From: a virus
Direction: 5' to 3' (one strand)
DNA: 31,839 nt
Virus record (IMG/VR): IMGVR_UViG_3300009129_000061
Location: 1 to 31,839 of that record
In this document: positions 5,157 through 31,839 of the stretch, one piece after another
Layout of the letters: each line of letters opens with the position of its first letter
How positions within the stretch are numbered: the stretch's first letter is position 1
Translations under genes and position numbers: made by a program
Notes under the pieces: model-generated
What the model was told of the DNA's origin: nothing
Databases searched by the model: none
What the model saw: the letters and a program-made list of their open reading frames with translations, nothing else

Positions 5157-5609
5157 ATGTTTATGAATTGGATGTACCAAGAAAACCCTGTTAAAAAATT
5201 ACCAGAAGACTGTGTTGGGTTTGTTTATCAAATAACAAATACAACTAATGGTAGGATGTACATAGGCAAAAAATTAGCAAAGTTTAAAAGATCACGTCCG
5301 CCATTAAAAGGTAGAAGAAATAAACGTAGGTACAAGGTTAATAGTGATTGGGAAGATTACTATGGTAGTAGTGATAACTTAACTATTGATATTAAAAGAC
5401 TTGGTAAACATAATTTTAAAAGAGAAATACTTTTTTATTGTAAATCAAAAGCAGAACTTTCATACATAGAAGCCAGAGAACAATTTGCACGTAAAGTTTT
5501 AGAATCAGATGATTACTATAATGGTCATATTCGTGTAAGAATACACGGGTCTGGAATACTTCGAGAAAAAACAACCAAAGGTATATTAAAAGAAAAAGCC
5601 TCCACTTAA
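5157..5609 (+). CDS. Free-standing GIY-YIG family endonuclease
   Basis: This 150-residue protein is a GIY-YIG nuclease of the homing (Seg-like) kind common in T4-like phages; such enzymes cut DNA at specific sites and spread by recombination. The GIY part is GFVYQIT and the YIG part is MYIGKK, both within residues 20-45. They are followed by a basic segment with KGRRNKRRY, then WEDYYGSS, and a helix with SYIEAREQF that supplies the expected acidic residue. The ending YYNGHI is also typical. There is no obvious DNA-binding extension, so specificity may be limited. ATGs at 5157, 5163 and 5172 are all in frame, with no clear ribosome site. It sits right after the hairpin-rich gap and faces the histone-like gene. 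Its stop codon lies in the loop of the terminator hairpin at 5596-5622. Confidence 0.88.
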   Translation: MFMNWMYQENPVKKLPEDCVGFVYQITNTTNGRMYIGKKLAKFKRSRPPLKGRRNKRRYKVNSDWEDYYGSSDNLTIDIKRLGKHNFKREILFYCKSKAELSYIEAREQFARKVLESDDYYNGHIRVRIHGSGILREKTTKGILKEKAST

Positions 5610-16472: not shown

Positions 16473-19400
16473 ATGGCCACAACAGAACGACAAAATAGAT
16501 TATTAGTTGCAGAAGATTGGAGAAAGATCTATCAATCTTTCCAACAAGCAGACTTTAAATCATATGATTTCGAAACACTTCGTAGAACAATGGTGGCATA
16601 TCTACGAGAAAATTATCCAGATGACTTTAATGACTTTGTAGAAAGTTCAGAGTATGTAGCACTTATTGATTTAATTGCCTATATTGCTCAGGCTTTATCT
16701 TTTAGAGTTGATTTAAATGCCAGAGAAAATTTTTTAGAAACAGCAGAAAGACGAAATTCGGTATTAACACTAGCAAGATTAATTAATTATAATGCTAAAA
16801 GAAATAAACCAGCTACAGGATTACTTAAAGTTGATTCAATATCAACAACGCAAGATGTTATTGATTCAACAGGATCAAATCTTGCAAATGCAACTGTAAT
16901 ATGGAATGATAGTGCCAATTCAAATTATAGAGAACAATTTACTTCTATACTTAATGCGGCCAATACAGCAGGACAACGTATTGGAAAACCAAGAGAGTCC
17001 GGAACAGTTGGCGGAATTAAAACAGAAGTTTACACTTTAAGTACAAATCAATTAGACTTACCAATTTTTACTTTTAGAAAAAGTATAGGAGGAGTAAGTC
17101 GAGGGTTTGAGATAGTACCATCAACAATAGAAAATTCAGAATCAATATACGAACAAGATCCTCTTCCAGGATCAGGTCTTACTTTTACATACAGAACAGA
17201 TGGATCAGGTGACACATCTAATAATACAGGATTTTTTCTTTTATTTAAACAAGGATTAATGCACCAAACTGAATTTACAGTAAGTCAAAGTACTACAAAT
17301 TATGTGCAATCAATTAACACTGCTAACATTAATAATAGTGATGTTTGGTTGTATAAATTAGATCAGTTCGGTCAAATTTTTGAAGAATGGAAAAAAGTTC
17401 CGTCATTAACAGGAAATAATGCAATATATAATTCGTTATCAAAAGCAGAAAGAAATATTTACAATGTAGTAACAAAAAATAATGACGCAATAGATCTTGT
17501 ATTTGGCGATGGAAATTTTTCTAACTTACCAATAGGAGCATTTAGAACATATTTTAGAGTTAGTGATAATGCTACCTTTTCTATTCAACCAACCGAAATG
17601 CAAAATATTCAAGTAGGAATTCCTTATGTAGATGCCAACGGAGCACAGCAAACTCTTACATTAACAATGAGTTTAAAAGCAAGTGTGTATAATGCATCAG
17701 CAACTGAATCAAATGCATCAATTAGAGAAAAAGCACCACAGGTTTATTATGCACAAAATAGAATGATAACAGCAGAAGATTATCAAGTTATGCCTTTGTC
17801 AGCATCACAAGAAATTATAAAAGTAAGATCAGTAAATAGAGCGGCATCAGGAATATCCAGAGCAAAAGAAATTTTAGATCCTACCGGAGCGTATTCAAAT
17901 GTATCTGTATTTGCAGATGACGGAATACTTTATAGAGAAGAAAAAATAAACACTTTTACTTTTACTTTTACAAATCGTCAAACAATTTTAAGTACAATAA
18001 ATTCATTTGTAGAAGCAAAATTAAAAAATGCATATGCAAGACATTTTTATTATTTGAAATATGGAACAAAAGATTTAAGTTCTTTAACAGCAACATGGGT
18101 TTCAACTACAACTGGAACTAATACTAATACAGGATATTTTAACGGTGTAGGACCTTTAGTTACTGGAACATATGCAACGTCTAATTTAAAATATGCAACA
18201 GTTGGGTCAATAATAAAATTTACATCCCCAGATACAAGAGAATTTTTAAACAATTCTTTAGTAACAGCAGGAACCGATAATGCCGAAGATAGAAGTTGGG
18301 TAAAACTTGGTGCAGTTGAAGGTGATGGTGCTAATGGAGGATTAGGTAATTTAGAAACAGGAGTAGGACCAATCACACTTAATGATATTATTCCTAATGG
18401 TTCTGTATTAAATGCTATAATTCCTGCATTTACTACAACATTTAGTAACACATTAAAAACTGATATAATTGATCGAACTGAAGCATATGAAGAATTTGGA
18501 TTGAGATATGATGTTGATAATGAGGTATGGAAAGTAATAACGTCAACAAATATATCTGCAAGTTCAGTATTCAGTTTATCTAATACAGGATCAACTACAG
18601 GTACAAATTTAGATGCAAGTTGGTGGTTTAAATTTACAAACGATGGTAACACTTATACAGTAACGTACAGAAGTTTAGATTATATTTTTGAATCAGAAGG
18701 ACAAAACAAATTTCACTATGATGTACAAGAAAAAATTTATGATTATAAAACAGGAAAATCTGTAAAAGATACAATTAAAATTTTAAAAACAAATTCAATT
18801 GTTTCAACAGGAAATTCAATTGGATATCCGATTAATTGGCAAGTGGTTGATACAGTAACTGAAGCAGATGGATTTCAAGATAATCGAAAAGTAAAAGTTG
18901 GTTTTTATGACGACGATGATGATGGTATTGTAGATAATCCAGATATATTTGATATAGTAGTAGAACCAGATACAAATCCAACAGCTAAATTTATATTTTA
19001 TCAAAAATACATTTCATATGATAATATTTCAAGATATAAACCTTATGCCGCAACAAATTTTGTTGTGTCAAAAAATGAAACAGATATAACATTATCAAGT
19101 ACAACATATGCTGATGAACAATTATTTTATTTTTATGATGATGCAGAAAACGTAGTTAAAAAATATAGTTCTTCAACAAATACATTAACAACAACAACAG
19201 ATTATTATGGAAGACGTGGAAGATCGTCTTTAACCTTTCAATATAAGCATAATGCAGGACAAGAAACTAGAATAGATCCTTCAGTATCAAATATTGTTGA
19301 TGTGTATATGTTAGAAAGATCGTATGATAACTTGTATAGAATATGGTTACAAGATGGCGGAGCTAGACCAGTGGCAAGTACTTCAGATCAATTAAGAATA

Positions 19401-19955
19401 AATTATTCAGGTATACTTAACCCATTAAAATCAATGTCCGATCAAATAATATATCATCCTGTAAAATATAAAATATTATTTGGTACAAGTGCAGATGAAG
19501 AATTACAAGCAACATTTAAAGTTGTAAAAAATCAAAATACCAATGTTACAAATGCAGTTATCCAAACGAGAGTAATATTAGCAATAAATGAATTTTTTGC
19601 ATTAGACAATTGGGATTTTGGAGACACATTTTATTTTACAGAATTAGCCGCTTATATACATAATGAACTAGCACCAGACTTATTAACAGTAGTCATTGTG
19701 CCAAATCAATCAGGACAAGTTTTTGGATCGTTGTTCCAGGTTGCTTGTGCGGCAGACGAAATTTTTATCAGTGGGGCCACCGTTGATGATGTTACAATTA
19801 TAAGTGCATTAGGTGCCAATCAGTTATTAGCATCGGGTACAGTAGTAACGTCAACTTCCACAACAACTACAACATCAACATCTTCAGCAGTATCAGGCAC
19901 CACTACAACAGCAGGATCGGGAGCATCCACCGGCAGTAGTGGAGCAGGATACTAA
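16473..19955 (+). CDS. gp6: Baseplate wedge subunit gp6, enlarged
   Basis: gp6 forms the inner ring of the baseplate that dilates on contraction. The N-terminal part is clearly gp6-like: WRKIYQSFQQADFKSYDFET, then VALIDLIAYIAQALSFRVDL and NARENFLETAERR at about 65-95. The protein has 1,160 residues against 660 in T4. Much of the extra length seems to lie in a middle beta-rich part at about 540-900. It includes DDDDDGIVDNPD at 813-824, which has the spacing of a calcium-binding DxDxDG loop. The C-terminal core resumes at about 1000-1115 (FGTSADEELQATFKV). The final 40 residues are a Thr/Ser/Gly low-complexity tail. The stop overlaps the next start as TAATG. Confidence 0.92.
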   Translation: MATTERQNRLLVAEDWRKIYQSFQQADFKSYDFETLRRTMVAYLRENYPDDFNDFVESSEYVALIDLIAYIAQALSFRVDLNARENFLETAERRNSVLTLARLINYNAKRNKPATGLLKVDSISTTQDVIDSTGSNLANATVIWNDSANSNYREQFTSILNAANTAGQRIGKPRESGTVGGIKTEVYTLSTNQLDLPIFTFRKSIGGVSRGFEIVPSTIENSESIYEQDPLPGSGLTFTYRTDGSGDTSNNTGFFLLFKQGLMHQTEFTVSQSTTNYVQSINTANINNSDVWLYKLDQFGQIFEEWKKVPSLTGNNAIYNSLSKAERNIYNVVTKNNDAIDLVFGDGNFSNLPIGAFRTYFRVSDNATFSIQPTEMQNIQVGIPYVDANGAQQTLTLTMSLKASVYNASATESNASIREKAPQVYYAQNRMITAEDYQVMPLSASQEIIKVRSVNRAASGISRAKEILDPTGAYSNVSVFADDGILYREEKINTFTFTFTNRQTILSTINSFVEAKLKNAYARHFYYLKYGTKDLSSLTATWVSTTTGTNTNTGYFNGVGPLVTGTYATSNLKYATVGSIIKFTSPDTREFLNNSLVTAGTDNAEDRSWVKLGAVEGDGANGGLGNLETGVGPITLNDIIPNGSVLNAIIPAFTTTFSNTLKTDIIDRTEAYEEFGLRYDVDNEVWKVITSTNISASSVFSLSNTGSTTGTNLDASWWFKFTNDGNTYTVTYRSLDYIFESEGQNKFHYDVQEKIYDYKTGKSVKDTIKILKTNSIVSTGNSIGYPINWQVVDTVTEADGFQDNRKVKVGFYDDDDDGIVDNPDIFDIVVEPDTNPTAKFIFYQKYISYDNISRYKPYAATNFVVSKNETDITLSSTTYADEQLFYFYDDAENVVKKYSSSTNTLTTTTDYYGRRGRSSLTFQYKHNAGQETRIDPSVSNIVDVYMLERSYDNLYRIWLQDGGARPVASTSDQLRINYSGILNPLKSMSDQIIYHPVKYKILFGTSADEELQATFKVVKNQNTNVTNAVIQTRVILAINEFFALDNWDFGDTFYFTELAAYIHNELAPDLLTVVIVPNQSGQVFGSLFQVACAADEIFISGATVDDVTIISALGANQLLASGTVVTSTSTTTTTSTSSAVSGTTTTAGSGASTGSSGAGY

Positions 19956-22900
19956 TGGTAGATAAAGCAACCAATTCACAATCAGTTCAAGAAGTTGTAA
20001 CTCAAGATGGAATTGAGTTACGCAGATCAATCGCACACTTACCTGTATTCTATAGAACAGATAGCAACACAAGATTTTTATCAAGTACTATTGATCCATT
20101 AATTCAAAAAGGTGCATTACAAAGATTAGATGGATATATTGGTAGACAAGATGCTTATACAAGACAAATAACTGACACATATCTGTCTGCAACTAATAGA
20201 GATAGAATGGCATATCAATTAGAGCCTGCAGTAACTTACACAGATAAAGACACAACATCAGTTAATCCAGAAGACCAAGTAAAATTTTCAGGTACCTATG
20301 ATGATTATATTAATCAAATAAAATATTTTGGAGGTAATGTAGATAATCATGATAGACTAAACAAAGAAGTTATATACTCTTGGAACCCGGCCATTGATTT
20401 AGATAAGTTAATCAATTATAGAGAATATTATTGGTTGCCCGAAGGTCCAAATTCTATAACATTAGATTCAGTAGGACCAACGGCGTTAGTTGAAATTGAT
20501 GTAACAGCATGGCCAGATGATGGAAGTACGACAAGAGCATGGAAGTTTGGAACAAAAGAAAGTGAAAGAAATCCTCAAATAAAATTATATAGAGGTAATA
20601 CTTATAAATTTAAAGTAGACGCAAAAGGCCATCCATTCCATATAATGACAGAACCATATCGTCAAGGTGTTGCAGAAGATGGATCAACTTCTACTTTATA
20701 TACAACAGGTGTAATAAACCCAGCAACAGATTCGGGTATAGTTACTTTTACAGTACCAACTACGGCACCAGATGTACTTTATTATCAATGTGGCAATCAT
20801 GATAGTATGTATGGAATTTTTACTGTTGGAACGATAAGTTCAACAACAAAAATTGACGTTGCTAATGATATTTTAGGTACAAAAAATTATGCGTTAAGAA
20901 CATTAAATTTATCAAATGGAATGAAAATTAAATTTGAATCTAATGTTACTGATAGCACATATGCAGGTAAAGAATATTATGTTGAAGGAGTTGGAGATTC
21001 AATTACATTTACAAATATAGAAGATTTAATAACTCCCGAATCATATGCTACAGAAACAACTATTTTATTTGATAGTATTGCGTATGATTCTAGACCTTAT
21101 GCAAAAGCATTTTATCGTCCGGAAACAAAAGATTATATTACAATTAAAAGAGATTCAAGAGACCAAAATGCTTGGTCAAGATATAATAGATGGTTTCATA
21201 AATCTGTAATTGACGAAACAGCAGATGCTAATGGTTATACACCTAATTTATTAGAAACTGATAGAGCTAAAAGGCCAATTATAGAATTTGATTCGGGACT
21301 TGCTTTATATAATCATGGTACTGTGGCAAAAACATCTGTAACATTATTTGACACAGTTACAACTGATGCATTTTCTAATGTAGTTGCACAAACAGGTTAT
21401 ATTATAGATGGATTAGCAGTAGCAGATGGAATGAGAGTAGTATTTTCTGCAGACACCGATACACTTGTAAAAAATAAAATTTACGTAATTAATTTTGTAC
21501 AAGCCGGAGACTCAACGTCAGTAATTAATCTTACCGAAGCTACAGATGCCGTACCTGCAGATAACGAATCAATTTTTATTGAATTTGGAACAGCAAACCA
21601 AGGTAAAACTTATTATTATGATAAGTCAACAACTACTTGGAAAACAGGGCAGACAAAAATTAAAGTAAATCAAGCACCGCTGTTTGGTATGTGGGATAAT
21701 GATCATATATCATTTGATGATACAACAACGTATCCAAATTCGACTTTTAGTGGAGCAAATGTTTTTGCTTATAAAACGTCAACAACAGCAACTACAGATA
21801 CAGTATTAGGTATAAAAGTAAAATATAATACAATTAATAATATTGGTGATATAGTTTTTGAATCAGATCATACAGCAGGAACATTTACATATAGAACGGA
21901 TAATAATATTATAACTAAAAATCTTTCTGAAGGTCATTTGCATTATACTACTAGTCTAACAACACATAATTCAAAAAGTGCTTGGGTAAAAAGAACCAAC
22001 GAAAGTAAACAACGAGTAGTTAGAACATTTATAGTAGACAAAACAGAAAAACAATTGTTTCAAATTGATTTTTATAAAAATTCTATTTCTCTTACTGATT
22101 TAGAAATTTCAGTAACTGTAAATGGTATAAGAAAAAATTTAACAACAGATTATACAATAGTTAATGGAACAGTAAACAAATATATTCAATTTGTAAAAGA
22201 ATTAAAAGTAGATGATCAAATTAAATTAGTAGGATATTCAGCAACTAAAAAAGTTTCAAATAAAGGTATATACCAAATACCAGAAAATTTATCTGTTAAT
22301 CCATTGAATATACAAAAAGGTACATTTACATATGGACAGATACTTGGACACGTAAAAGATATTTTTGATAAGAATACAGATATAACAGGAAGTATACCAG
22401 GTTCTTCATCGCTCAGAGATAATCCTGATGCAACGTTGAATGGAGGATTAATAGTTCAGCACGAAGGAACATTATTACCTGCTGTATTTGGATTAATAGA
22501 CCAAGAAGCAAATGTATTAATTGCAATAGATTATTGTAATCAAGAGTATGAAAAATTTTATAATTCATTTTTAACATATGGACTTGGTACAGCATATGAA
22601 GGGATTGCCGCGGATAGAGTTGATGAAATCATTATAGCAATAAATCAAGGACGTGGGTCAACATTTCCTTTCTTTTATGAAGATATGATTGGAGTAGGAG
22701 AAAATTATTCATTAAGAACTTATACTGTACAAGATGCATCTGAAACTGAATATGCAATTGATTCAGTGCATACAATGACTGAAACAAATAATAGAGCGGT
22801 ATATGTTTATAAAAATGATGTACAGTTGATTTTAGGTACAGAATATACTGTTAGTACAACCGATGATAGTATTAATATCATATCTACACTTGTTGCAGGA

Positions 22901-25900
22901 GATATTATTAAAATTAGAGATTACAGTGATACAACTGGAAGTTTTATTCCTCCAACACCAACTAAATTAGGATTGTATCCAAAATTTAAACCCGAATTAT
23001 TTACAGACGACACTTATCTTATAAGTCAAACTATGATTAGAAAACACGACGGTTCATTTATTAAAGCATACGGAGACGAAAGAGACAATTTAATATTAGA
23101 ACTTGAAAAAAGAATTTATAATAATATTAAAACACAATATGATTCTACATTATTAGATATAGGTGATGTTGTTCCGTCAGCATTTAAGTCAACAGAATAT
23201 ACATTAACAGAAATAAATGATGTAATGGGTTCGGATTTTTATATATGGGCAGGCAGAAATGGTGTGCAATATATTAATAATACAACGTTTGTTGAAGGAT
23301 CACCGTTTACATATAATTATTCAGCATCAACAGATAGAATAAACGATGCTAAATTGCCAGGCCACTGGAGAGGCATATACAAATATTTTTATGATACAGA
23401 TAGTCCACATATAAGACCGTGGGAGATATTAGGATATTCAGAAAAACCTAGTACTTGGGAAAGTACATATGGTTTGGCACCATATACATCAGGTAACACA
23501 ATACTATGGGACGCAGTTGCAGGGCATTTAGGTAGATATGGTAAATCAAGTATTGCATCATATATTCCAGTAGATACGTCAGGAAATTTATTAGATCCGA
23601 TCGCCGCAAAATTAATTAATACATTTGATGTGCCAAACAGAAACCAAGCATGGAAGTTTGGAGACCAAGGTCCAGCAGAAACTAGTTGGAGAAGATCAAG
23701 TGCATATCCTTTTTCTGTAATAAAAACATTGGCTCTTACTAAACCAGCGAAATTTTTTAATTTATTTTTTGATAATAGTAGATTAACTAAAAATATTTCA
23801 AATAATTTAATTAGTAAAGATACAAATATTATACAACAATTAAGTACAGCAAACTATCATTTAGAAACTTCTACAAATATTCAAACAGGAGTTGTAACAA
23901 GATATACAACAGCGGGATATCAACCATTTGTAGTAAATTATTTAATATTTAAAAATCTAGATCCATTAACTTTCTTTTATAATAAATTAAAACAATTAGA
24001 TATTCAATTAGCTTATAAGTTAGGTGGCTTTACTGATAAAGAAAATATAAAAGTTTTAACTGATTCAGTTTCACCAGGATCAACATCAGGTTCTAAATTT
24101 ATACCAGATGAAAACTATAAAATATTATTTAGAACGTCAAATCCTGTAAACAGTTTTAATTATTCAGGAGTGTTAATTGAAAAGAATACAGACACATCAA
24201 TTGATGGATCAACATTATTAGGTGGGTGGAAAGTATTAGGATATTCTACTACAAAACCATATTTTAATTTTTATTATCCTATAAAAAGCATAACAGGTCA
24301 AAAAGTTATTGTATCAGATGCAGAAGCAATAATTTATCAGAATTATCAAACAACAACACAAGTTATTCCATATGGTCATGTATTTGATACAATTCAACAA
24401 GTTGTAGATTTTTTAATGGGATATGGAAAATGGTTAGAATCTAAAGGTTTTGTTTATGATAAATTTTCAAATGAAATAAAAGAAGTATTAAATTGGAGAT
24501 TGTCAGTTAAAGAATTTTTATTTTGGACAACGCAACCTTGGGCACCGGGTTCAGCAATTACAATATCTCCAGGAGCAAACGGATTTCAGCTTAACACAGA
24601 GAATTCAATTGTTGGAAAATTAAAAAACCTAGCAGGAGATTATTCTTTGTTAGATGCAGGTGGAAGAAAAATTGATATTGTAAATGTTAGTACTAAAAGG
24701 TTAGGGAAGAATTTTGAAATTTCGATTAAAGATCCTGATATTGGACTTTATAATATAGCATTAAACACAGTTCAAAAAGAACATATATTATTGTTTGATA
24801 ATACAACAGTGTTCTCTGATATTATATATGAACCATATACTGGATATCGTCAAGCAAGATTAAAATTAGTAGGATGGAAAACAAGCAACTGGACTGGTGA
24901 TTATCATGCTCCAGGGTTTATGTTTGATGCGGCACAGGTAACATATTGGTTAAAAAATACAGATTATAAAATTGGTGACACAGTAGAGTATCAAGGAAAA
25001 TTTTATGTTGCAAAAATAAATCATAATTCAAGCACGACTTTTGTTAATGAAAGTTGGATACAAAAATCGGAAAAGCCTAAATTACAATTAATTCCAAATT
25101 TTGATTATAAAATTTCACGGTTTAATGATTTTTATAGTTTAGAATCAAATAATTTTGATGAATCACAGCAAGGATTGGCACAACATTTAATTGGATACCA
25201 ATCAAGAGATTACTTAGAAAATCTTTTTGTTAATGATATTTCACAATATAAATTTTATCAAGGATATATTCAAGAAAAAGGTACGCAAAATGCTATTGAT
25301 AAGTTATTAAAAGCAAAATACGAAGGACAAAATATATCTTTAGATTTATATCCAGAATGGATGATTCGTACAGGTAAAATTGGAAACACAGATTTAAAAG
25401 AAAGTATTCAAATTGTGTTAGATGATGACGAGTTTACAGCGAATTCACAAAGTATTGAATTATTTGATACGTCAAATGAGACACAACAGTATGCTAGATC
25501 TGTTTATGTTGATAAAAATAATTTATATAGTAAGCCAGTTGAATATATAGCCAGTACAACGTTTTCAAGATATAGTTATGCTACAGAAGGGGTAGATAGA
25601 GATACAGTACAAGTTCTTCCAAATGCAGGTTATCCACAATTAAATCAAGTACAACGTACAGCATATAACATAGAAGATCTTTTAGAGTTGGATCTTACCT
25701 TAACTAGCTCAAATGATTTAATTTGGGTAGCAAATAAAACTAATAACGATTGGGACGTATTTCGTTTAACGTTGTCAGGATATAAAATTGCACAATTAAA
25801 ACCAATTAATGGTAATACACAATTAGAAATTACATTTACCAGTTCACATGATCTAGTAGCAGGCAGTTCAACAACAATGGCAGATTATTTTGCAATAACA

Positions 25901-28900
25901 AATTCTAAAACTGTAGAATTAAATGGAGTTTATACTGTTCAGTCGGCACCAACTCATAAAACTGTGATTGTAGATTATACAGACACTATTTCTGAAATTT
26001 CAACCTTCACACCATTAGAAGATGGGTCAACAGCAGATTCATATGGTAATATTTACAAATTTATATCTGTAAGATTAGCATCAATGGACAATGTTAATGA
26101 TGTGTTATCTTATAATGTTTATAATGATTTAAATGATAGTATATCAAAAGAAGGTGATAAAGTTTTTGCAGATGCAGATGCATCTGGATTGTGGCGTGTT
26201 TATGAAAAGCAAGATCCATACACGCAAATTAGAATGCTTTCACCAGACACAACAGCAGAACAAGATTTTGGATATCAAATAGTAGCAAGGAATGATGGTC
26301 GATCAGTTATTATATCATCGCCAACAAAAGGCCAAGGTACAGTACACTTTTTATTTAGAAGAGAAAGTACAGCAGGAACAACATTTTTAACACAATCAGC
26401 TGTAACAACAACTTCTGGTAGTGATAATACAAGTAGATTAGGTAGTTCATTATCAATGAGTACCGACGAAAACTTTGTTGTAGCAGGTGGACCTTATGCC
26501 AATTCTCTTGGTTCAGACGGAAGTACAAGATTTTCAGATGCAGGTTTAATTAAAATATTTTTATGGAATACATCAACCTTCAAATATGATCCATTAGTTA
26601 CAAAATTACCACCAACTGATGCGGCATCGCAAAACTTTGGCTGGGCACATAAAATTTGTGAACCAGGAGCAAGTTCAGTAAGAAGCACACCAGTAAAATA
26701 TCTATTTGTTTCAGCACCAGGAGTAGGTACAAATGCAGGTGCAGTTTATATGTATGAATGGGGTATAGGAGAAGATTTATCAACATATGATACATGGACA
26801 CAAAATTTAACAATAACATCTTCTGACCCAGGTGAGAATAAAAGATTTGGTCATCGACTACAAGCAAATGATAATGGTGATATACTTGCTGTTAGTTCTA
26901 AAGCACCAGGGCAGGCAGGAAAAGTAGAAATTTATACAAGAATATCACAATCAAGTGATGATAGTACAAGTCATTCATTTGCTCTTGCACAAACATTGAC
27001 AGGTACAACAGCAGACGGTTCTTCGTTGAATACTCAATTTGGAGAGTCATTAACAATGACTAAAGATGGCACAGTTTTAGTAGTTGGTGCTCCAGGATTT
27101 GATGATAGTAGCCAAGCAGATGTAGGTGCTATCTATTATTATAAATGGAATGCAGACGGATCTACAAACACATATACTTTGCAACAAACTATAAAAGCAC
27201 CAGACGAACAAACTAATTCAAAATTTGGTAGTACAGTAGATATAAACGATACAGGAACAAGATTAGTAATTGGTGCAGAAAAAATGTCAAATCATAGAGA
27301 ACAAAAATTTGATTTGGGAGAAACAACATTTGATTTACAAGATACAAGATTTATTGATGAAAATTTAGGATCAGGTGCGGCATATACCGCTACTATGTAT
27401 AATACAAAATTTGTAATAGATGATATATTAGTTACAACAAGTGTATCAGCAAATGATGATTTTGGTAGAGGTGTTTGTGTTATTGATCAAACAGTTTTTG
27501 TTGGTGCACCAGAAGATGAAGGTAACACATCTGCAGACGGAAGTTCAATGGTTAGTAATGACGGAACAGTTACTTGTTTTGACTTAACAACTAATGACAC
27601 ATACGCTTGGAAAGAAATTTCATCAGAAACTGCATTAATAGACATTAATAAATTAGGACAGGTTTTTCATTTTAATAAAAATAGTAAACAAATTTTAAAT
27701 TATTTTGATTTATATGATCCAGTTAAAGGAAGAATTTTAGGAATAGCAGATAGAGAAATTAATATTAAAACTACTTGGGATCCAGCGTCATATAATGCTG
27801 GTACAAATCCTAAAGAAAAAGTTGCATGGGCCGAAGACCATATTGGAGAAATATGGTGGGATTTATCTAAAGTTAAATGGTTATGGTATGAACAAGGAGA
27901 TCAAGAATTTAAAATTAATAACTGGGGTAAAGTATTTCCGGGATCTTCGATTGACATTTATGAATGGACCGAATCAACAATGTTGCCACATGAGTGGAAT
28001 GATTTAGCAGGAACAACACCAGGATCCTCACAAGGTATATCAGGAATACCGTTACATCCAGACAATTCACATTACACCGTTAAACAAATATATAATTCAG
28101 CACTCGATGGTTTTGTAAATTATTATTATTATTGGGTAAGAAATAAACAATCAATGCCAACAAATTCAGTAGTTGTAAGAAAAAATACTGCTTCTTATAT
28201 AAGCAATATAATTTTGAATCCTTTAAATTCAGATATTAGACATTATTCAATTACTGATGTAAACAAAATGTTAGTATTTGGTGCAAAACAAGATCTTTCA
28301 AATGATGAAGTTATTTTAAATGTTGACACAAGAACAAATACATTTGAAGGAGGAGCACATTCAATATGGAAATTAGTACGTGAAGGAGATAAATTTTATC
28401 GTCCAGGAACACAAATAGAAACACGTTGGTGGGATTCATTAATAGGTTCAAATTTAATAGGAGATATTGTACCGGATATAAATTTACCTGTAAATGAAAA
28501 ATATGGAAATAATATAAGACCACGACAATCTTGGTATGTTAATAGATTTAATGCATTAAAAGAAATAATAGATTATGCTAATTCAATTTTAAAAGTTAAT
28601 GAACTTTCGGGAACAATAAATTTAGATAATTTAAATTCAGAAGATCCAGAACCAACAGCTGAAAGTTTAGAATGGGACGCTAAAGTTGCCACATATGCTG
28701 AACTAACATATATTGATACAAGAGATTTAAGTGGTACTTTAAATTATCTTGTTGAAGCAGACGAAACAGTAAATGGCTATTGGTCAATATATAAATGGGA
28801 TGGATCAACATGGTCACGAACCAAAGTACAAACATTTAATACAAAAAATTATTGGTCTTACATTGATTGGTATAAAACGACAGGCACTATGGTTCATGAT

Positions 28901-31839
28901 GAAAATACATCAATAGATAAGCAAGTAACGTATCAATATGAATTAGACGCATTAACTTTAGCAACAGGTAAACACGTAAAAGTTACATCCGCAGATACCG
29001 GTGGTTGGAAAATATTCATGAAAACCAGTACTGGGTGGGAAAATGTTGCAACAGAAAATGGTACACTTAGATTATCAACAAAACTTTATGATTATACGCA
29101 AGATGCAACAGGATTTGCAGATGCAGATAATTTTGATGATAACTTCTTTGATCAAGAACCTGCAATAGAAACTAGAAAAATATTAACAGCATTAAGAGAT
29201 GATTTGTTTATAAATGAATTAGCAGTAGAATACAATACATTATTTTTTATTGGATTAAAACGAGTATTGTCAGAACAAACTTATGTAGATTGGATGTTTA
29301 AAACATCTTTTATTAATGCAAGAAATTCTGTAAGAACTTTAGATCAACGAAAAACTTATACAACAGGAACAGATGCTTGGATTGAATCTTATATAAATGA
29401 AGTTAAACCTTTCCATACAAAATTGAGAGAATACAAATTAGGTTATACAGGTACAGATACTGAAGATGGAATTAATACTGATTTTGATAATCCTCCTTTT
29501 TATGATGCAACAACCGGAACAATAAGAAATTTAAATGTACTAGGTGATGCTACTAAACAAACTGAATATCCTCATAAATTTTGGAGTGAATATTATAAAA
29601 AACACGTTGCTTCAATTACTGTAACTAACGGAGGTTCAGGATATACAGCAGTTCCAACAGTAACAATATTAGGTGGAACCACAGGCAGTACAGGACCGTT
29701 CCAAATTTATGATACAGCGGCATCAGGTGCAAGTGCAGGATCATTGGGATATTATTATCCACTTTATACAACAGAATTACAATCTAATATTGCTGATACA
29801 CAAAATGGTGGAACAGGAACGTCAAGACAATTTACATTTGACAGTTATTCGGGCACGTTTTATCAACCAACTTCGTATGTAACATATGCACAATTAATAA
29901 AATCAGCAACGTATAAAATGTATACAACACCCGACACAACTGCGGCAACTGCCACGGCAATTGTTAAGAATGGGTCGGTGTCAGCAATTACAGTAACCGG
30001 AATTGGAGCAAATTATACATCAACACCAACAGTAATAATTTCAGGTGGTTTAGTGGATGGTACAAATCCTACAGATCAAGCTAAAGCATATGCAAATTTA
30101 GGAAATGATCTTGTAAGAGATTTTAGTACAACAGTTAAATTTGATAGAATATCATCTACATCACGAGTACAAGATTGGACAGCATTATCCAGTTATGCAT
30201 ATGGAGATTTAATTAGATATAAAAATCAATTGTATAAAGCAACATCGGCTTTTACTGCAACAACAGATTTTGATGACAACGATGGAAATGTATACAAAGT
30301 ATATGGAGACGAAACAGGATTAAGTGCGGCGGATAGAACAAAAGGGTTTTATACACCAGCGTCAGGAATGCCAGGAAATGAATTATCACAATTAATGACT
30401 GGAGTAGATTATGGTGGCACAATGGTTACAGGCTTATTGTTTACACAAGGTCAAGGATGGGATAAATCGGGTTGGTATGATTATGCGTGGGATCATTATG
30501 GTACATCAAAAATTAAAACATTTTATGGAGATGGTAGTACAGTTGCATTTACATTTACAACAGCACCAGCAACAACTGAAGTTTATCAAATATATGTTGC
30601 AGGAACATTAACAACAGATGTTTTCAGAGGGGATGGGTCAACAACAACATTTACATTAAGTTCTGCTCCAGCCGACGGAGCTGTGATTAAATTTATACTA
30701 TTTGATGACGATGGTGTATTAACACCAACTGATGATAGAACATTAGATTCAATTGTTAAAGGTGGATTGTTTAATTCAGCATTAGGTACATCACCATCAG
30801 ATATTTTATTAGAAGGAGATGAATTTGTTTCACCAGATACAAGTTATGCTCCAGAAGAAGCAGTACCTGGACAAATGTTTGATACAGTAGATATAAAAGT
30901 TTATACATCACCAGAATCAGGTGCGCCATTTATTACAACAAAAAATTATACAGGTAACGGATCAACAACAGCGTTTTCAACAGGAGAGTATCCAGGAACA
31001 TTAGCATCAGTTATTGTATCAGTTGATGGAGTAACTAAAAAAATTACAACAGATTATACAATTAATGTAGCAAATAAAACAGTTACATTTGGTTCAGCAC
31101 CAGCAAATAATTCTATTATTTCAATTAGGACGTTTGCAATATCAGGAGAAAATTATAGAGTATTAGATACGTACACAGGAGATGGTAGTACAGTTGCATA
31201 CACAACATCAACAAGAGAAAACTTTAATTTAGATTCTAGTAATTCACAAATTTATATTACAATTAATGGTGTACCAACAACAGCATACACAACAACATCA
31301 TTAGCAAAATCAATTATTGTTACATTTGATTCTGCTCCGGCGGCAAATGCTTATGTTCAAGTTGCAGGATTTAATCAAACATCAGCAACAAGAGCGTATG
31401 CTCAAATTATGTCAGGTACAATTACATATGATGGATCAACAACTAGGCATACTTTAACATATCCACCAGGAGCAATTGGTCCATATTCAGGATTAACACT
31501 AGTTGAAGTTAATGGAAAAATGTTAAGAGGTCCCGACAATACATATTATTTAGGTGACGGTAGTACATACAACTACGGTGTAGTAACAGGTTTAGAAGAT
31601 GATTCAACAGTTGATCCGTCAAAAACAATTTCAGCTGAATCAGATGTACAAGTATTTGTAAATGGAGTACAAAAATTATTAAACACTGATTACACAGTTA
31701 ACATTGGTGCACAAACAATTTCAATGGTAACAGCACCAACAGTAACAGATGTAATTGCAATATCAACATTAGTTGATAATCATTATTACAATGAAGGAAA
31801 TGATATAATTTTAATTCCAAGTAGAATAACAAGTCCTTA
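19955..31839 (+). CDS. gp7: Giant baseplate wedge/virion protein in the gp7 position (at least 3,961 residues; runs off window)
   Basis: The frame opens at the ATG overlapping the gp6 stop, with AGGA ahead of it, and I see no stop to the window edge. T4 gp7 is 1,032 residues. The N-terminus (HLPVFYRTDSNTRFLSSTID, then IDLDKLINYREYYWLPEGP) and the part near 1000 (FIPPTPTKLGLYPKFKPELF) resemble large virion proteins of marine T4-like phages. A cupredoxin-like segment is at about 205-300, with His226/His229, Cys279, His282 and Met285. A Y-x-x-GD-x-V-x-Y module is at about 1671-1705 and again at 3414-3429. Seven FG repeats form a predicted beta-propeller at about 2100-2560. Two GGSGYT-type repeats are at 3220-3241 and 3343-3365, and GDGST repeats run from 3525. 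The coding call is secure; the gp7 name rests on position and resemblance. Confidence 0.85.
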   Translation, partial: MVDKATNSQSVQEVVTQDGIELRRSIAHLPVFYRTDSNTRFLSSTIDPLIQKGALQRLDGYIGRQDAYTRQITDTYLSATNRDRMAYQLEPAVTYTDKDTTSVNPEDQVKFSGTYDDYINQIKYFGGNVDNHDRLNKEVIYSWNPAIDLDKLINYREYYWLPEGPNSITLDSVGPTALVEIDVTAWPDDGSTTRAWKFGTKESERNPQIKLYRGNTYKFKVDAKGHPFHIMTEPYRQGVAEDGSTSTLYTTGVINPATDSGIVTFTVPTTAPDVLYYQCGNHDSMYGIFTVGTISSTTKIDVANDILGTKNYALRTLNLSNGMKIKFESNVTDSTYAGKEYYVEGVGDSITFTNIEDLITPESYATETTILFDSIAYDSRPYAKAFYRPETKDYITIKRDSRDQNAWSRYNRWFHKSVIDETADANGYTPNLLETDRAKRPIIEFDSGLALYNHGTVAKTSVTLFDTVTTDAFSNVVAQTGYIIDGLAVADGMRVVFSADTDTLVKNKIYVINFVQAGDSTSVINLTEATDAVPADNESIFIEFGTANQGKTYYYDKSTTTWKTGQTKIKVNQAPLFGMWDNDHISFDDTTTYPNSTFSGANVFAYKTSTTATTDTVLGIKVKYNTINNIGDIVFESDHTAGTFTYRTDNNIITKNLSEGHLHYTTSLTTHNSKSAWVKRTNESKQRVVRTFIVDKTEKQLFQIDFYKNSISLTDLEISVTVNGIRKNLTTDYTIVNGTVNKYIQFVKELKVDDQIKLVGYSATKKVSNKGIYQIPENLSVNPLNIQKGTFTYGQILGHVKDIFDKNTDITGSIPGSSSLRDNPDATLNGGLIVQHEGTLLPAVFGLIDQEANVLIAIDYCNQEYEKFYNSFLTYGLGTAYEGIAADRVDEIIIAINQGRGSTFPFFYEDMIGVGENYSLRTYTVQDASETEYAIDSVHTMTETNNRAVYVYKNDVQLILGTEYTVSTTDDSINIISTLVAGDIIKIRDYSDTTGSFIPPTPTKLGLYPKFKPELFTDDTYLISQTMIRKHDGSFIKAYGDERDNLILELEKRIYNNIKTQYDSTLLDIGDVVPSAFKSTEYTLTEINDVMGSDFYIWAGRNGVQYINNTTFVEGSPFTYNYSASTDRINDAKLPGHWRGIYKYFYDTDSPHIRPWEILGYSEKPSTWESTYGLAPYTSGNTILWDAVAGHLGRYGKSSIASYIPVDTSGNLLDPIAAKLINTFDVPNRNQAWKFGDQGPAETSWRRSSAYPFSVIKTLALTKPAKFFNLFFDNSRLTKNISNNLISKDTNIIQQLSTANYHLETSTNIQTGVVTRYTTAGYQPFVVNYLIFKNLDPLTFFYNKLKQLDIQLAYKLGGFTDKENIKVLTDSVSPGSTSGSKFIPDENYKILFRTSNPVNSFNYSGVLIEKNTDTSIDGSTLLGGWKVLGYSTTKPYFNFYYPIKSITGQKVIVSDAEAIIYQNYQTTTQVIPYGHVFDTIQQVVDFLMGYGKWLESKGFVYDKFSNEIKEVLNWRLSVKEFLFWTTQPWAPGSAITISPGANGFQLNTENSIVGKLKNLAGDYSLLDAGGRKIDIVNVSTKRLGKNFEISIKDPDIGLYNIALNTVQKEHILLFDNTTVFSDIIYEPYTGYRQARLKLVGWKTSNWTGDYHAPGFMFDAAQVTYWLKNTDYKIGDTVEYQGKFYVAKINHNSSTTFVNESWIQKSEKPKLQLIPNFDYKISRFNDFYSLESNNFDESQQGLAQHLIGYQSRDYLENLFVNDISQYKFYQGYIQEKGTQNAIDKLLKAKYEGQNISLDLYPEWMIRTGKIGNTDLKESIQIVLDDDEFTANSQSIELFDTSNETQQYARSVYVDKNNLYSKPVEYIASTTFSRYSYATEGVDRDTVQVLPNAGYPQLNQVQRTAYNIEDLLELDLTLTSSNDLIWVANKTNNDWDVFRLTLSGYKIAQLKPINGNTQLEITFTSSHDLVAGSSTTMADYFAITNSKTVELNGVYTVQSAPTHKTVIVDYTDTISEISTFTPLEDGSTADSYGNIYKFISVRLASMDNVNDVLSYNVYNDLNDSISKEGDKVFADADASGLWRVYEKQDPYTQIRMLSPDTTAEQDFGYQIVARNDGRSVIISSPTKGQGTVHFLFRRESTAGTTFLTQSAVTTTSGSDNTSRLGSSLSMSTDENFVVAGGPYANSLGSDGSTRFSDAGLIKIFLWNTSTFKYDPLVTKLPPTDAASQNFGWAHKICEPGASSVRSTPVKYLFVSAPGVGTNAGAVYMYEWGIGEDLSTYDTWTQNLTITSSDPGENKRFGHRLQANDNGDILAVSSKAPGQAGKVEIYTRISQSSDDSTSHSFALAQTLTGTTADGSSLNTQFGESLTMTKDGTVLVVGAPGFDDSSQADVGAIYYYKWNADGSTNTYTLQQTIKAPDEQTNSKFGSTVDINDTGTRLVIGAEKMSNHREQKFDLGETTFDLQDTRFIDENLGSGAAYTATMYNTKFVIDDILVTTSVSANDDFGRGVCVIDQTVFVGAPEDEGNTSADGSSMVSNDGTVTCFDLTTNDTYAWKEISSETALIDINKLGQVFHFNKNSKQILNYFDLYDPVKGRILGIADREINIKTTWDPASYNAGTNPKEKVAWAEDHIGEIWWDLSKVKWLWYEQGDQEFKINNWGKVFPGSSIDIYEWTESTMLPHEWNDLAGTTPGSSQGISGIPLHPDNSHYTVKQIYNSALDGFVNYYYYWVRNKQSMPTNSVVVRKNTASYISNIILNPLNSDIRHYSITDVNKMLVFGAKQDLSNDEVILNVDTRTNTFEGGAHSIWKLVREGDKFYRPGTQIETRWWDSLIGSNLIGDIVPDINLPVNEKYGNNIRPRQSWYVNRFNALKEIIDYANSILKVNELSGTINLDNLNSEDPEPTAESLEWDAKVATYAELTYIDTRDLSGTLNYLVEADETVNGYWSIYKWDGSTWSRTKVQTFNTKNYWSYIDWYKTTGTMVHDENTSIDKQVTYQYELDALTLATGKHVKVTSADTGGWKIFMKTSTGWENVATENGTLRLSTKLYDYTQDATGFADADNFDDNFFDQEPAIETRKILTALRDDLFINELAVEYNTLFFIGLKRVLSEQTYVDWMFKTSFINARNSVRTLDQRKTYTTGTDAWIESYINEVKPFHTKLREYKLGYTGTDTEDGINTDFDNPPFYDATTGTIRNLNVLGDATKQTEYPHKFWSEYYKKHVASITVTNGGSGYTAVPTVTILGGTTGSTGPFQIYDTAASGASAGSLGYYYPLYTTELQSNIADTQNGGTGTSRQFTFDSYSGTFYQPTSYVTYAQLIKSATYKMYTTPDTTAATATAIVKNGSVSAITVTGIGANYTSTPTVIISGGLVDGTNPTDQAKAYANLGNDLVRDFSTTVKFDRISSTSRVQDWTALSSYAYGDLIRYKNQLYKATSAFTATTDFDDNDGNVYKVYGDETGLSAADRTKGFYTPASGMPGNELSQLMTGVDYGGTMVTGLLFTQGQGWDKSGWYDYAWDHYGTSKIKTFYGDGSTVAFTFTTAPATTEVYQIYVAGTLTTDVFRGDGSTTTFTLSSAPADGAVIKFILFDDDGVLTPTDDRTLDSIVKGGLFNSALGTSPSDILLEGDEFVSPDTSYAPEEAVPGQMFDTVDIKVYTSPESGAPFITTKNYTGNGSTTAFSTGEYPGTLASVIVSVDGVTKKITTDYTINVANKTVTFGSAPANNSIISIRTFAISGENYRVLDTYTGDGSTVAYTTSTRENFNLDSSNSQIYITINGVPTTAYTTTSLAKSIIVTFDSAPAANAYVQVAGFNQTSATRAYAQIMSGTITYDGSTTRHTLTYPPGAIGPYSGLTLVEVNGKMLRGPDNTYYLGDGSTYNYGVVTGLEDDSTVDPSKTISAESDVQVFVNGVQKLLNTDYTVNIGAQTISMVTAPTVTDVIAISTLVDNHYYNEGNDIILIPSRITSP
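20567..20854 (+). other. Cupredoxin-like segment of the giant protein
   Basis: Residues about 205-300 contain GHPFHIM (His226, His229) and, 50 residues on, YYQCGNHDSMYG with Cys279, His282 and Met285. The order His...Cys-x2-His-x2-Met after a beta-rich stretch is that of a type 1 copper site, though plastocyanin has a longer His-Met gap. Copper binding is inferred. Confidence 0.65.
26252..27634 (+). repeat. Seven FG-GAP-like repeats, predicted beta-propeller
   Basis: In residues about 2100-2560 of the giant protein, FG (once LG) starts a repeat at 2105, 2162, 2228, 2298, 2362, 2424 and 2503, each followed by a polar turn and then strands such as TVLVVGAPGFDD or VFVGAPEDEG. Spacing is 57-79 residues, right for propeller blades of the integrin-alpha/FG-GAP type. 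The segments on either side look like ordinary family sequence, so the propeller may be an insertion. Confidence 0.8.
30527..31567 (+). repeat. C-terminal GDGST-type beta repeats in the giant protein
   Basis: The motif GDGST or a close variant recurs at residues 3525, 3559, 3667, 3742, 3825 and 3867. Several copies are followed by strand-rich text of the form VxVNGxxK...DYTVN...TxxFxxAP, as in tail fibre repeat domains. Spacing is irregular (34-108 residues), and the array may continue past the window. Confidence 0.75.

Follow-up and report, generated by a model that had tools for sequence, protein, structure and literature searches.

We identified a predicted closed, seven-bladed FG-GAP propeller of the integrin-alpha type inside a giant, wedge-side virion protein of an uncultured jumbo phage lineage. 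The window that we analysed is a stretch of 31,839 nt (IMG/VR record IMGVR_UViG_3300009129_000061), in which the giant ORF occupies positions 19955–31837 on the + strand and encodes at least 3,961 aa, with its 3′ end lying beyond the window. The propeller was assigned from a Pfam profile and a predicted model to positions 26210–27622 (+ strand; residues ~2086–2556), and these approximate limits improve on the borders of 26252–27634 given in the original prediction, which had correctly picked out the block itself. The Pfam FG-GAP_2 profile (PF14312) matched the 461-aa block with an E-value of 2.2e-15 and a score of 57 bits against a cut-off of 23, three stretches of the block passed the cut-off individually, and the same profile matched the entire giant ORF with an E-value of 3.1e-10. 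Searches of PADLOC and PHROGs with the propeller block gave no match.

The block contains FG dipeptides at residues 2105, 2228, 2298, 2362, 2424 and 2503, and an LG at residue 2162, spaced 57–79 residues apart; hence, the seven blades expected from seven FG repeats at residues 2105–2503 are there, as six FG blades and one LG blade. The count of six FG dipeptides compares with a mean of 2.1 in shuffled sequences, and 215 of 20,000 shuffles contained six or more. Such mild enrichment is compatible with FG repeats that arose by chance or belong to another repeat fold, and FG counts by themselves are weak evidence for a propeller; the claim rests instead on the profile match and on the model. An AlphaFold2 model of the block, built with 81 sequences, had a mean pLDDT of 81 and a pTM of 0.81, and holds seven sets of three inner strands, with blades read from the secondary-structure string rather than from coordinates. 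The best 50 of 454 Foldseek matches in the PDB (E ≤0.001) were all integrin entries, and VIA-align 2 gave, among the matches listed, Z scores of 32.8–36.8 with 356–374 residues aligned at 3.0–3.3 Å rmsd. Integrin alpha heads superposed on model residues of about 56–526, i.e. on the whole block. The profile match and the whole-ring superposition make chance repeats or another repeat fold exceedingly improbable and, as far as prediction goes, rule them out; they confirm the block as a predicted closed propeller of the integrin type, complete as first proposed.

In the model, an outer strand lies before blade 1 (26219–26239; residues 2089–2095) and, judging from strand order and the whole-ring superposition, probably closes the ring as part of blade 7. 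The inner strands of blade 1 (26279–26356; residues 2109–2134) lie just downstream of the FG at 2105, and are followed by blade 2 (26447–26569; residues 2165–2205), which has the LG at 2162 in place of FG, blade 3 (26648–26761; residues 2232–2269), blade 4 (26855–26941; residues 2301–2329), blade 5 (27047–27148; residues 2365–2398), blade 6 (27224–27397; residues 2424–2481) and blade 7 (27470–27586; residues 2506–2544), all on the + strand. The top-scoring FG-GAP_2 stretch (residues 2408–2445) falls at blade 6, which also has a long loop (residues 2442–2474) modelled in part with low confidence.

We scanned for the calcium loops of integrins, which have a DxDxDGxxD-type pattern between strands A and B. 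This type of motif was absent from the window and from the 81-row near-relative set (0/81), and was found in one of 71 wider relatives. A calcium-binding head, which the original prediction had raised, was dropped on this integrin-type motif scan. Mean column entropy among the 81 near relatives was 0.95 for the propeller, 1.03 for the flank before it and 0.91 for the flank after it, so that at this range the propeller does not diverge faster than its flanks. Of all loops, those between strands A and B were the most strongly conserved in blades 1, 2, 4 and 5 (entropy 0.10–0.40), but the AB loops in blades 3, 6 and 7 were not (1.03–1.49), and the BC and DA loops, at 1.04 and 1.05 respectively, were not hypervariable. 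The conserved AB loops suggest, at the level of sequence, a surface that has been kept, although tight turns alone could explain them. They also bear on the possibility that the propeller is only a bulky spacer or wedge stabiliser without a specific ligand: its fixed, vertical inheritance and the tolerance of an insertion in a hairpin turn (see below) are consistent with such a role, but strong conservation of AB loops in blades 1, 2, 4 and 5 argues against it, a pattern that blades 3, 6 and 7 do not share, and we regard a pure spacer as quite unlikely.

We examined the insertion point by comparison with relatives that have no propeller. In these relatives, a small module with the pattern GD-YVD--g-WaVYk-(short turn)-W--iR-q--vD stands just before the conserved downstream body, and in propeller carriers WaVYEK is found 5′ of the propeller and sWk-lR-qe-lvD is found 3′ of it. 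The first half of the module in the window, as located with the joined-flank profile, is at 26144–26215 (+ strand; residues 2064–2087) and the second half is at 27605–27682 (+ strand; residues 2551–2576). The window flanks, joined without the propeller at a joint set by eye, which favours the joined score, scored 28.1 bits against a propeller-less module profile, compared with 10.0 and 9.3 bits for the two halves; the best of 200 shuffles against the same profile, with only the window sequence shuffled, scored 8.9 bits. The profile consisted of 11 rows, some of them near-identical, of which nine had been scored as propeller-less and two (L493, L499) were unscored but have no room for a propeller; three RaK2-type rows were dropped, and RaK2-type relatives do not have this hairpin. 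In 71 of 77 carriers, the pattern of the first-half motif allowed us to place a joint, a procedure that likewise favours the joined score, and the joined flanks had a median of 23.5 bits as against 10.3 and 9.6 bits for the halves, with a gain of more than 5 bits over the better half in 61/71 carriers and a score above the window's best shuffle in 70/71. We conclude from these profile comparisons that the propeller splits a small phage body module, and strands in the model suggest a hairpin formed by its two halves across the propeller. The block is absent, as a clean insertion, from relatives with an uninterrupted module, a comparison that the original prediction had called for. There is also a hint, from sequence, of two intact copies of the module further along the giant protein: one at 28742–28831 (+ strand; residues 2930–2959) scored only 4.4 bits and is modelled as strand-turn-strand with modest confidence, and the other, at 28967–29062 (+ strand; residues 3005–3036), scored only 7.8 bits, which does not exceed the 8.2 bits reached by the top stretch of the best shuffle.

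Homologous body was found on both sides of the site in the giant proteins of RaK2, Munch, PA5oct, SCTP-2, Vibrio 2.275, Atu_ph07 and Phosso, and none of these seven phages had a propeller-profile match at the site. The distance between body markers was 696 residues in the window, 208–270 in RaK2, Munch and Vibrio 2.275, 334 in PA5oct and 513 in SCTP-2; a LamG-like domain, which the letters of the SCTP-2 insert had suggested, was dropped, Pfam having returned only a sub-threshold CBM_5_12 match for the protein. Atu_ph07 and Sinorhizobium phage Phosso (L165 and L166) have 1,514–1,523 residues between the markers, with no propeller-profile match, and Phosso encodes a separate 3,692-aa protein (XYS97267.1; L081, 14902–25980) with several propeller-like stretches.

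The body of the giant ORF matches phrog_10938, ‘virion structural protein’, with 1147 bits, and is 24–31% identical to the giant proteins of PA5oct, RaK2, Munch, Atu_ph07, Phosso and SCTP-2; where they are not truncated by a contig end, relatives' versions of the ORF have roughly 4,100–4,660 codons from stop to stop. Directly 5′ of it is a gp6-like gene (16473–19955, + strand) that matches phrog_10646 (976 bits) and phrog_219, both ‘baseplate wedge subunit’, and whose relatives are also annotated as wedge. The gene order in the window is hub/lysozyme-like, gp25-like, gp6-like, giant ORF, and the T4 order for comparison is 5, 6, 7; thus, the giant ORF shares with T4 gene 7 the position right after a gp6-type wedge gene. 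A profile of eight giant proteins scored −0.4 bits against T4 gp7 with HMMER and gave no usable hhalign match, and these comparisons detected no homology with gp7. T4 gp7 has in Pfam two C-terminal domains, a helical domain and an fn3 match below threshold, with an unnamed middle; we found no mention in the open-licence literature of a propeller in it, which would lessen the novelty of the one described here. The record of PA5oct notes ESI-MS/MS for its homologue of the giant ORF, and in the phAPEC6 proteome (PMC7247149) the 131-kDa baseplate wedge protein is followed, in numbering, by a protein of 382 kDa, which from order and size is likely to be the product of the same gene. We refer to the giant ORF product as a baseplate protein because of gene order and virion detection in relatives, and the propeller would accordingly be positioned on the baseplate, carried, as originally proposed, on a large body protein adjoining wedge genes. 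The label ‘jumbo’ reflects the relatives and carrier contigs of 200–229 kb (L355, L380, L381).

PDB sequence searches with the giant ORF and with the downstream body as queries gave no match, and that with the gp6-like ORF gave one odd match, to a heme peroxidase (E 0.0008). A predicted model of the body downstream of the propeller had low confidence (pLDDT 68), no PDB match at an E-value of 0.001, and a best VIA-align 2 Z score of 5.3, to a phage tailspike, which is below a meaningful level. Three ORFs lie downstream of the giant gene in a related locus (L002, 17397–21061); only one has a tail-fibre PHROG match (E 2e-6), and the Pfam matches were all sub-threshold. Elsewhere in the window, the ORF at 5157–5609 (+ strand) matched a PHROG named ‘NAD synthetase’ (E 2e-40) as well as several homing endonuclease families, names that conflict.

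Other stretches of the giant protein also drew our attention. Residues ~195–292 (20537–20830, + strand) form a stretch that we take to be cupredoxin-like, with a possible H-C-H-M copper site (GHPFHI...YYQCGNHDSMYGIF); a Pfam search of this stretch gave no match, its relatives occur in 292 phage records, nearly all of cyanophages, and among the 12 matches listed some are in wedge/fibre-connector or tail-spike genes. One of two CBM_5_12 (chitin-binding type) matches in the protein is at 24947–25036 (+ strand), and CBM_5_12 was also found in 13 of 36 relatives' insert segments from the set with no propeller-profile match. Near the end of the window, a Phage_T7_tail-like match below cut-off (30941–31192, + strand) lies amid GDGST repeats.

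To describe the distribution of the propeller, we surveyed 491 loci, which gave 478 ORFs with both body flanks and 241 distinct inserts. The propeller profile matched 193 of the 241 inserts and missed 48; one of the latter (L348) has three blade matches, was taken as a diverged carrier, and is presumably the single FG-GAP_2 match among the 36 segments scanned. From 233 sequences with enough downstream body we selected 114 representatives at less than ~72% identity, 37 of them, including L348, with no propeller-profile match. On a tree of the downstream body, 78/114 representatives were carriers, and a single branch separated all of them from the non-carriers; the number of changes between carrier and non-carrier was two with raw labels and one with L348 counted as a carrier. 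A tree of the upstream body (112 rows, 77 carriers) likewise had one change, with an SH-aLRT of 99. Both trees come from quick searches and have weak deep branches and no known root. We conclude from these sequences that the propeller was apparently gained once and was not swapped among the phages sampled; the trees being unrooted, we favour gain over loss because non-carriers show an uninterrupted module. A recently swapped or exchangeable adhesin was rejected on the single change in each of the two trees, with L348 counted as a carrier.

The propeller was present in 79 of the best 80 loci of a scan with the downstream body, the exception (L152) starting after the site, and in 80/80 of another scan, these two overlapping lists being the window's nearest relatives. 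Every scan returned its best 80 loci, with many contigs recurring between scans; the best 80 loci of a later scan lie outside the 241 inserts, close relatives of carriers were found partly through the propeller itself, and the loci lacking a propeller comprised the seven named phages and those retrieved with two queries distant from the window. Over 2,477 pairs, mean identity was 0.33 for the propeller, as against 0.47 and 0.48 for the two flanking parts of the body. Propeller identity had a rank correlation of 0.73 with the downstream body and 0.76 with the upstream body, compared with 0.83 between the two body parts, indicating that the propeller co-diverges with the body, but faster, across the whole lineage. 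A genome scan with two phage-like patterns, which cannot reach distant cellular donors, found four contigs in metagenome-assembled genomes (MAGs). These propeller-encoding contigs (L573–L576) sit in bacterial MAGs of four different groups, and are probably mis-binned, stray phage contigs. The names of these MAGs are the sole pointer to a marine setting, and we make no claim of one.

Integrin alpha heads (PDB 9t3y, 5e6u, 4wk2) have the same fold over the whole ring at 13–18% identity among the matches listed, and integrin alpha-IIb gave a weak sequence match to the propeller (best E 0.028). By contrast with these heads, the phage propeller has no DxDxDGxxD-type motif in the window and is nested in a phage body protein. 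In a library of predicted viral structures, Foldseek found the fold in giant-virus and phage proteins, with E-values of 3e-16 to 2e-27 for a virion structural protein of cyanophage S-TIM5 (H6WG31), a ‘hemagglutinin’ of Atu_ph07 (A0A2L0UZX4), an FG-GAP protein of an uncultured Caudovirales phage (A0A6J5S3H5) and a Mimivirus LCMiAC01 protein (A0A481Z0W4), all of them other proteins by their names. FG-GAP proteins of prasinovirus MntV1, proposed to act in attachment or entry, are also viral, but are products of separate genes of an algal virus; the accessible part of that report describes FG-GAP domains as almost unknown in viruses (PMC11467894), a view contradicted by the predicted-structure library, which shows the fold in several viruses. 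Thus, neither the fold itself nor its occurrence in viral FG-GAP proteins is new. In the open-licence literature, however, we found no description of such a propeller lodged within a wedge-side body protein and fixed across a jumbo phage lineage, and no paper linking FG-GAP with phage baseplates or myoviruses.

A closed propeller inserted once into the β-hairpin turn of one of the small modules in the body of the giant protein would protrude from the baseplate like a knob; because the ends of a closed ring adjoin, a hairpin can accommodate it and leave the rest of the body as it was. The likeliest role of the knob is that of a lasting platform for protein binding, on which tail-fibre or accessory virion proteins are docked or steadied, which fits with its being permanent and kept by all sampled descendants. 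According to PMC10811340, the T4 gp7-type wedge protein serves several phages as the anchor for their receptor-binding proteins. We consider that a fixed surface module, inserted once and docking virion proteins, comes close to an even chance, and that docking is more likely than an exchangeable adhesin. The predicted fold, the insertion point, the one-branch distribution and the co-divergence with the body are what our data show, whereas the hairpin pairing, the gain, the place on the baseplate and the docking function are inferred. The faster divergence of the propeller than of the body counts against docking, being also compatible with a ligand-facing head, and so do the undetected homology with gp7, the poor model of the downstream body and the single tail-fibre match among the three downstream ORFs of L002.

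Such a head might bind receptors or glycans from the wedge, so that the phage would touch the cell at another site in addition to the fibres. In favour of this, integrin alpha heads belong to receptors that bind ligands, the propeller outpaces the body over the whole lineage, and the same giant protein has two CBM_5_12 stretches. A different protein, baseplate gp098 of RaK2, has been proposed as a secondary receptor binder in the accessible text of PMC10253068. However, all carriers (78/114) fall on one side of one branch, conservation of the propeller in the 81 near relatives roughly equals that of its flanks, the BC and DA loops lack hypervariability, and the integrin-type calcium motif is missing from the window; hence, we view a receptor- or glycan-binding head as a tentative possibility, second to docking. 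A bolder reading, which we consider rather unlikely, is that a large uncultured jumbo phage lineage acquired an integrin-type head on a single occasion, set it into its main wedge-side body protein and turned it into a lasting baseplate organ for gripping the host or a matrix; if true, this would be a phage counterpart of the integrin head that works without canonical calcium loops. The docking platform remains our preferred reading. Overall, the data clearly illustrate how a complete predicted propeller has been domesticated within a wedge-side body protein of a phage, by insertion into a hairpin whose empty counterpart we identified in relatives. The propeller marks a whole phage lineage, and its knob presents a testable target: what does it hold?
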